Below, piece by piece: positions 50,867 through 52,171 of a stretch of 64,000 nt of DNA (its first letter is position 1; every line of letters begins with the position of its first letter). The notes under the pieces are model-generated. The model saw only the letters and a list, made by a program, of their open reading frames with translations. It was not told where the DNA came from and ran no database searches. Both the position numbers and the translations under genes were made by a program. The DNA is from Fusobacteria bacterium ZRK30 (GTDB lineage Bacteria > Fusobacteriota > Fusobacteriia > Fusobacteriales > Fusobacteriaceae). Where the stretch lies: positions 248,001 to 312,000 of the forward strand of contig CP102405.1 of the NCBI GenBank assembly GCA_024628785.1. The letters run 5' to 3'.

Positions 50867-50895
50867 TTGACATAACAAAGAAAATAGTTTATACT
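50867..50895 (+). promoter_or_regulatory. Promoter of the asnA leader
   Basis: TTGACA (50867-50872) and TATACT (50890-50895), exactly 17 bases apart; transcription would start near 50902. Confidence 0.88.
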
Positions 50896-50925
50896 TCTTA
50901 CAAATAGATTATAAGGAGCAGAACT

Positions 50926-50997
50926 ATGTTTAAATTAATTATAACTTCTAACAATAATAATAATAATAATAATATGAGGGGATTTGTATATAGATAG
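50926..50997 (+). CDS. asnA leader peptide with eight consecutive Asn codons
   Basis: A 23-codon ORF (MFKLIITS, then eight Asn, then MRGFVYR, stop TAG at 50995). Asn codons are AAC once and AAT seven times at 50950-50973. AAGGAG lies seven bases before the ATG. It lies 24 bases after the predicted transcription start and upstream of asparagine synthetase, and is followed by mutually exclusive hairpins. By the logic of his, trp and leu leaders, ribosome stalling here when Asn-tRNA is short should let transcription go on. Too short for usual gene finding. Confidence 0.88.
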   Translation: MFKLIITSNNNNNNNNMRGFVYR

Positions 50998-51079
50998 CAT
51001 TTAGTTATCTTTAGGCAGATCCATTTTGTGATAAAACAAGATGCTAATGCCTAGAACCCCTCAATGAAACTATAAGGGA

Positions 51080-51114
51080 AACCATCAAGGCAATTATGCT
51101 TTGATGGTTTTTTT
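51080..51114 (+). terminator. Terminator of the asnA attenuator
   Basis: A 13-bp stem with one G-U pair and a 4-nt ATTA loop, then T7, 59 bases before the asnA ATG. Confidence 0.9.
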
Positions 51115-51172
51115 AATTTATTTCACCTTTTTACCCTAATAATCTTAAACAAATAAACTCAGGAGGACAACC

Positions 51173-52171
51173 ATGAAAAAAACAACAGACAAGTATGAAA
51201 GTAAATTATCACTATTAGAAACAGAGATCGCAATCAAAAAACTTAAAGATTTTTTTGAAAGCTCGTTAGCTTACGAACTTAACCTAACTAGGGTTTCAGC
51301 TCCCCTATTTGTTAAAAGTACATCTGGATTAAACGATGATCTGAACGGAATTGAAAAGGCAGTTTCTTTTTCAACTGAACACGAAGAAAGATTAGAGATC
51401 GTTCATTCATTGGCAAAATGGAAGAGAATGGCACTATATAGATATGGGTTTGAAACTCACACAGGTTTATATGCCGATATGAATGCCATAAGAAAACATG
51501 AAGATCTTTCTGAGATCCACTCATTATATGTAGATCAATGGGATTGGGAAAAAATAATTTCAGAAGAGGAAAGAAACATAACAAAACTTAAAAATATAGT
51601 TGATCGAATCTACAAGGCATTTAAAAAAACAGAAAGCTATATTAAGAGAGAATATCCTGTTCTTACTCTTGGCTTACCTGAAGAAATACACTATATCACA
51701 GCTGTTGAATTAGAAGAAAGATACCCTGAACTTACTCCTAAAGAGAGGGAGCATGCTGTAACTAAGGAGTATGGTGCTGTATTTATTATTGGGATTGGGG
51801 ATAAACTTCCTTCTGGAGATCGTCACGACGGCCGTGCCCCGGACTACGATGATTGGTCATTAAACGGAGATATATTGTTCTGGAACTCTGTATTGGATAG
51901 ATCTTTAGAGCTATCTTCTATGGGTATAAGAGTCGATAAAAAAGCTCTCCTAGAGCAACTTGAAAAAACAGATACTATGTGGAAAAAAGAGATGGATTTC
52001 CATAGATCACTTCTTGAAGGAAAACTACCTTTTACAGTCGGTGGGGGAATTGGGCAATCTAGAATATGTATGTATTTCTTGGAAAAAGCTCATATTGGAG
52101 AAGTTCAGTCATCTTCATGGCCTGCTCATATAATTGAGGAGTGCAGGGAAAAAGGAATAGAATTACTATAA
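51173..52171 (+). CDS. asnA: Aspartate-ammonia ligase (asparagine synthetase A)
   Basis: 332 residues. AsnA makes asparagine from aspartate, ammonia and ATP; it is a homodimer related to class II tRNA synthetases. Signatures: [49 protein letters not shown] and [18 protein letters not shown], with the C-terminal [23 protein letters not shown] lies seven bases before the ATG. It is alone behind a poly-Asn attenuator, so expression should rise when Asn-tRNA is scarce. A strong terminator ends the unit. Confidence 0.97.

Follow-up and report, generated by a model that had tools for sequence, protein, structure and literature searches.

A candidate asparagine leader-peptide attenuator upstream of asnA in Fusobacteriota, on an RNA architecture found with other amino-acid codon runs

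The leader locus before asnA

We analysed a stretch of 64,000 nucleotides from Fusobacteria bacterium ZRK30 (contig CP102405.1), referred to here as the window. In it, asnA is preceded by a promoter, a short open reading frame (ORF) that contains a run of asparagine codons, and an intrinsic terminator located between this ORF and the gene. The features are listed below, with positions counted from the first letter of the window.

50867..50895 (+): promoter, -35 TTGACA (50867-50872), 17-nt spacer, TATACT (50890-50895); 11/12 consensus positions
50913..50918 (+): Shine-Dalgarno AAGGAG of the leader ORF, from the sequence
50926..50997 (+): leader peptide ORF, MFKLIITSNNNNNNNNMRGFVYR and stop; 23 codons, led by a Shine-Dalgarno sequence
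50950..50973 (+): eight consecutive Asn control codons, AAC then 7 AAT, from the sequence
50975..50981 (+): 5' strand of helix P1, TGAGGGG, partner 51057-51063; minimum free energy (MFE) fold, lineage-dependent
50980..50986 (+): segment 1, GGATTTG, partner segment 2; pairing conservation
50992..51010 (+): small hairpin AGATAGC-ATTTA-GTTATCT over the leader stop codon, within the 1:2 stem-loop; folding
51012..51022 (+): segment 2, TAGGCAGATCC; CAGATCC pairs with segment 1, TAGGCA with segment 3
51022..51028 (+): CATTTTG motif after segment 2; alignment A4
51048..51055 (+): segment 3, TGCCTAGA, partner segment 2 or segment 4
51057..51063 (+): 3' strand of P1, CCCCTCA; sequence and MFE fold
51075..51115, approximately (+): intrinsic terminator (4:5) with U tract; fold, and changes on both sides in relatives
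51085..51092 (+): segment 4, TCAAGGCA; 5' arm of the terminator and antiterminator partner of segment 3
51161..51166 (+): Shine-Dalgarno AGGAGG of asnA, from the sequence
51173..52171 (+): asnA, aspartate--ammonia ligase, 332 aa; TIGR00669 and Pfam AsnA

The product of asnA scored 352.5 bits with TIGR00669 against a cut-off of 292.8. Since no asnB-type synthetase was found over its family cut-off in the genome of the window, asnA is probably the main dedicated route to free asparagine there, and because an asparaginyl-tRNA synthetase (AsnRS) is encoded in the genome, charged tRNA-Asn can serve as a signal. The leader of the window folds far better than its shuffles (z = -5.6; 0 of 200 shuffles equal). 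An initial annotation, made from the sequence alone, had described a 23-codon ORF with eight consecutive Asn codons behind AAGGAG, the helices TAGGCA/TGCCTA, TGAGGGG/CCCCTCA and TGCCT/AGGCA, and a U-tract terminator, and all of these are in the sequence. The promoter, which it had called perfect, is present and excellent but deviates from the consensus as listed; its TTGACA is found in relatives of the same genus too. Of the other AAY runs of the genome, those examined fall within larger ORFs, are in the wrong frame or have no leader context, so that no second Asn leader of simple form was seen. Elsewhere in the window there is a glmS ribozyme (RF00234, 22288-22469, reverse strand, 87.7 bits).

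Asn-run leaders and alternating pairings in Fusobacteriota

The gene asnA was found in 78 of 98 Fusobacteriota genomes. Leader ORFs with a Shine-Dalgarno sequence and an Asn run (4 to 22 Asn) lie before 33 asnA copies, which belong to seven genera of the family of the window and to one genome of a second family, and a terminator follows all but one of these leaders; the Shine-Dalgarno match is at least 4 nt long in every leader accepted. We also applied a strict scan rule (ATG, Shine-Dalgarno sequence, Asn run of at least 4, 60-450 nt before the gene). An Asn-run leader ORF was present at 30 of the 78 fusobacterial asnA loci, and the same scan found none on the 78 reverse strands, at 79 mostly clostridial asnA loci or in 780 dinucleotide shuffles. 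No such leader occurs in the neighbouring family f4, and some genera of the window's own family lack it as well. The initial annotation had proposed to look for Asn-rich ORFs upstream of asnA in relatives, and these are conserved: the Asn run is kept, with a length of 5 to 12 within the genus of the window, and the rest of the peptide varies between genera.

The one leader without a terminator is that of Fusobacteriia bacterium 4572_74 (L004), whose leader ORF MFKLITIFNNNNNT stops 33 nt short of asnA, with neither a terminator nor a switch present; L031 is probably the same assembly. This is apparently a natural deletion of the attenuator in which the Asn ORF was kept. In another genome (G019, loci L230 and L024, the latter with part of its upstream stretch masked) several hundred bases are inserted between the Asn attenuator and asnA, and the attenuator may be uncoupled from the gene. 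Two genomes, G032 (L118/L130) and G035 (L026/L113), have two asnA copies each, every copy with its own Asn leader and switch.

Four alternating pairings were seen in an alignment of 16 asnA leaders (A1). In the window, GGATTTG (50980-50986) pairs with CAGATCC (51016-51022) just after the Asn run, TAGGCA (51012-51017) pairs with TGCCTA (51048-51053), and TGCCT (51048-51052) pairs with AGGCA (51088-51092); across the alignment, segment 2 reads CAAATCC or CAGATCC. Segment 3 follows the loop of the hairpin, and segments 4 and 5 are the 5' and 3' arms of the terminator. As judged from the sequences, the switch appears to consist of five segments, with 1:2 and the antiterminator 3:4 on one side and 2:3 and the terminator 4:5 on the other. 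This seems a better scheme than the initial one, whose pairings exist but which was incomplete: the helix that it numbered 1:2 is really 2:3, and GGATTTG/CAGATCC was absent from it, even though this helix is the best conserved among the alternative helices that involve the leader ORF (98.2% of cells paired in the 16 leaders). Segment 1 starts 6 nt past the last Asn codon and 30 nt past the start of the first. It therefore lies 3' of the Asn run and does not overlap the control codons as strand 1 of a trp-type attenuator does. The 5' strand of P1 begins 1 nt after the run.

The terminator is paired in 99% of cells in the same 16 leaders, and 5 of its 10 pairs changed on both sides. For the antiterminator 3:4, in a register chosen by hand on which these stronger figures rest, 85% of cells were paired in 11 haplotypes compared to 75.5% with shuffled partners (4/5000), and six pairs were double-changed compared to 3.0 expected from shuffling (35/5000); the automatic MAFFT register gave no excess of double changes for this helix. 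Its variants include GTACCC/GGGTAC, ATGCCC/GGGTAT, TAGCCC/GGGTTA and TGCCT/AGGCA. Compensatory change, which the initial annotation had proposed as a check, was thus found in the antiterminator and the terminator but not in the outer helix TGAGGGG/CCCCTCA (P1), which showed no excess of covariation, with 77.5% of its cells paired. We had considered P1 as a central conserved helix; it was dropped as a general feature for lack of that excess and kept as a lineage-specific one.

Related leaders with other codon runs

A covariance model built from asnA leaders (R1) also matched loci other than asnA. The leaders among these matches were MMMM before metG, MMM before metN, HHHHH before an amino-acid ABC transporter, FWYFYYF before DAHP synthase, PIPP before putP and ILIIII before a BASS-family transporter. 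A second model (R2), built on 20 leaders in a model-fitted alignment, gave 149 matches in 54 of the 98 Fusobacteriota genomes. When 60 further loci (L236-L295) were inspected, all but four had a leader ORF with a Shine-Dalgarno sequence and a fitting codon run, and the remaining four (hom, metY) had a Met-rich ORF with a weak Shine-Dalgarno sequence; with L217-L229, these loci make up the non-asnA leaders. The codon run fits the gene that follows: His before hisZ and the ABC transporter, Met before metG, metN, hom and metY, Thr before thrS, Trp before trpS, Tyr before tyrS, Pro before putP and aromatic codons before DAHP synthase. The genes confirmed with NCBIfam were thrS, trpS, tyrS, hisZ, hom, a metY-type sulfhydrylase, aspartate kinase, putP and an AGCS carrier. 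The substrate is least certain in the Ile and the Trp-run ABC-permease cases. The initial annotation had presented the element as the isolated case of a single gene; in fact the same RNA architecture, with other codon runs, stands before many amino-acid genes of the phylum, and on sequence comparison we consider with high confidence that this chassis is common in the phylum.

The genome of the window has six members, located before asnA, metG, the metN operon, hom, a His-run ABC transporter and a Tyr-run AGCS carrier. Its metG behind the Met-run leader (L217:574-1659) stops after 362 codons and is followed by a second ORF, while in G055 (L224) the reading frame of the homologue continues for at least 558 codons; the former is possibly a broken second metG or a sequencing error. 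In Clostridia, the model matched in 5 of 148 genomes at E <= 1e-4. The clostridial matches that were inspected (L301, L303, L296) have leaders with HHH to HHHHH before hisZ-like genes and are sporadic. A few matches near E = 1e-3 to 1e-2 in a 20-genome clostridial control look false.

The pairings were also examined across codon types. A MAFFT alignment across these types misplaced the terminator stem of the Met leaders, and a model-fitted alignment (A4) was used instead. In it, 19 of the 20 pairs of 2:3 and the terminator changed on both sides among 20 leaders of six codon types, and 91.8% of cells were paired compared to 71.7% when shuffled. In a set of 37 leaders that covers nine codon types, pairing each leader with its own partner gave better mean energies for 1:2 and for 3:4 than all 5000 partner permutations; the 2:3 figure of this test is not clean, as its two windows overlap. 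An earlier test of own against foreign duplexes within asnA leaders was weak for the genus of the window and for g3, because related leaders share sequence, and was replaced by this test across amino-acid types. The motif CATTTTG(T) after segment 2 is nearly constant in leaders for different amino acids and is not always paired. It is possibly a pause site of RNA polymerase, which would fit a hairpin-stabilised pause.

Proposed switch, alternatives and known systems

In order to relate the pairings to the position of the ribosome, each leader was folded as far as the loop of the terminator, and a ribosome footprint that extends 15 nt behind and 12 nt ahead of the A-site codon start was placed at each codon in turn; these are equilibrium models. 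The antiterminator was predicted to be likelier with the ribosome on the Asn codons than at the stop codon in 25 of 31 asnA leaders, and in many of them this excess was larger than in shuffled leaders; three leaders (L026, L118, L112) had clearly the opposite sign. In the genus of the window, the models have the antiterminator sequester the terminator arm while the ribosome occupies the final two or three Asn codons, and release the arm once the ribosome reaches the tail and stop codon; with the ribosome stalled on the first Asn codons, they do not predict a free antiterminator at equilibrium. In the other genera the arm is predicted to be sequestered across the Asn region, with release in most cases close to the stop codon. 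Most non-Asn leaders gave a flat terminator-arm profile and were not counted as support. The 1:2 hairpin retains about 8 pairs with the ribosome on the control codons and about 2 at the stop codon. It survives the former but not the latter in 43 of 52 leaders, a count that is partly geometric since segment 1 was sought near the stop codon.

The locus has a translatable leader ORF with its own Shine-Dalgarno sequence, a codon run cognate to the gene, a terminator before the gene and a mutually exclusive antiterminator kept by compensatory change in the hand register and in the 37-leader test. We hold with high confidence that the element is an Asn leader-peptide attenuator. As the initial annotation had suggested, and as the conserved Asn run and compensatory pairings indicate, asnA is very probably under ribosome-mediated transcription attenuation. 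The attenuator very probably senses charged tRNA-Asn and is built on a five-segment chassis common to many amino-acid genes of the Fusobacteriota. The ribosome would translate the leader while RNA polymerase moves on ahead. With ample Asn-tRNA it would get to the leader stop codon and cover segment 1; segments 2 and 3 would then pair, and segment 4 would be free to form the terminator 4:5, so that transcription stops. With Asn-tRNA scarce, the ribosome would stall within the Asn run and leave segment 1 free to pair with segment 2, which would release segment 3 to pair with segment 4 as antiterminator and allow asnA to be transcribed. In the genus of the window, P1 would additionally retain the antiterminator strand as long as the RNA is free of ribosomes, and P1 would be disrupted once a ribosome stands on the last Asn codons. 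We infer regulation by asparagine, stalling and the direction of the response from comparison and folding, and propose a starvation response through this exact order of pairings with moderate confidence.

A classical trp-like switch would instead have the stalled ribosome mask TGAGGGG, so that CCCCTCA and TGCCT form the antiterminator and GGATTTG/CAGATCC has no role. We regard this as possible but rather unlikely. TGAGGGG/CCCCTCA is part of the MFE structure, the antiterminator in the genus of the window is predicted with the ribosome on the last Asn codons, and other members have a similar helix that overlaps their His and Pro control codons. However, P1 lacks the covariation excess and the degree of pairing (77.5% of cells) of 1:2, which is paired in 98% and holds in leaders for other amino acids. 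It is more likely that P1 complements the 1:2 switch than that it replaces it.

It is very improbable that the small ORF encodes a functional micropeptide and no regulator. Although it is a well-formed gene with promoter and Shine-Dalgarno sequence, the peptide outside the Asn run varies freely between genera, its conserved tail (MRGF/MSGFGL) is accounted for by RNA pairing, and the peptides of the related leaders are of unrelated sequence, with runs of His, Met, Tyr or Pro that match the genes behind them.

Control of asnA by a T-box or another tRNA- or ligand-binding riboswitch is similarly hard to credit at this locus. The initial annotation rightly noted that asnA in related Gram-positives is more often under T-box control: T-boxes precede 15 of 20 asnA genes tested from Clostridia and Bacilli. 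The T-box model (RF00230) found none in the window leader or at 40 fusobacterial asnA loci tested, no Rfam 15 family passed its gathering cut-off in the window leader or in related leaders, and the coding run would be superfluous for such a mechanism. The only T-box-like element in the genome of the window lies upstream of asnS (G000:C1:493452-493626, reverse strand, locus L182), scores 74 bits, below the Rfam cut-off of 93, and has an apparent AAC specifier, an Asn codon. With this element at asnS and the Asn leader at asnA, one organism appears, from its sequence, to use a T-box for the former and a leader peptide for the latter.

That the AAT run is a neutral AT-rich microsatellite with an ORF there by chance is scarcely conceivable, for although its length varies (5 to 12 Asn within the genus), it always falls in the Asn frame of an ORF with a Shine-Dalgarno sequence, has a constant place upstream of one and the same RNA switch, contains both AAT and AAC, stays in frame where other codons interrupt it, is absent from the controls and keeps the Asn frame across genera.

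Returning to the ribosome-mediated attenuator, we consider it likely that Fusobacteriota use one portable chassis with exchangeable control codons in order to regulate aminoacyl-tRNA synthetases, transporters and biosynthesis genes, partly in the place of the T-boxes of Clostridia, with the ribosome covering or uncovering a strand near the leader stop codon. Asn and Met sensing would be included among at least eight amino acids or groups: Asn, Met, His, Tyr, Trp, Thr, Pro, aromatics and probably Ile. Leader-peptide attenuation is a textbook mechanism, described mainly in Proteobacteria and Actinobacteria and for few amino acids. If true, a conserved version in another phylum, with Asn and Met sensed and codons that can be swapped, would show that the mechanism arose earlier, or moves more easily, than has been supposed. 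The leaders may also be used as natural constructs for testing the influence of codon choice and ribosome position on the switch, and about 150 leaders without Rfam annotation would gain a regulatory one.

We know of no described case of leader-peptide sensing of asparagine or methionine. Within the open-access literature, to which the search was limited, no asparagine or fusobacterial leader-peptide attenuator was found. Two motif-discovery papers that touch Fusobacteria (PMC8632094, PMC11109978) report uORF motifs, and the passages found in them do not cover the present one. The closest precedent is that of the His leader peptides of hisS/hisZ in Firmicutes, which replace T-boxes in bacilli (Naville and Gautheret 2010, PMC2965389). 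There too a leader peptide takes the place of a T-box before an amino-acid gene outside Proteobacteria; that case concerns His in bacilli, whereas here Asn and at least seven other amino acids or groups are found on one chassis in another phylum, and the main text of that paper has no mention of asnA or asparagine.

The clostridial asnA T-box (RF00230) has the same gene, the same aminoacylation signal of tRNA-Asn and the same choice between terminator and antiterminator, but there the RNA binds the tRNA directly and no leader peptide is involved. Like the attenuators of trp, leu, thr, ilv and pheA, the present element combines a leader ORF that contains cognate codons with a downstream attenuator. 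The trp type is built of four segments, and its strand 1 overlaps the control codons, whereas five segments are proposed here, with 1:2 and 3:4 as the ON state. The enterobacterial his operon attenuator has a run of His codons in a short leader ORF and alternating segments A-F, whose exclusive helices end in an intrinsic terminator as they do here, and segments 1-5 map onto B-F. It differs in that here Asn would be sensed, the target is a single gene, asnA, segment 1 comes after the control codons and near the stop codon, and the A segment is lacking or has its place taken by the lineage-dependent P1. The proposed switch would thus amount to the his logic without the A segment. Ribosome-mediated attenuation is a kind of control already known; what would be new is the amino acid sensed, the chassis common across a phylum and the strand close to the stop codon.
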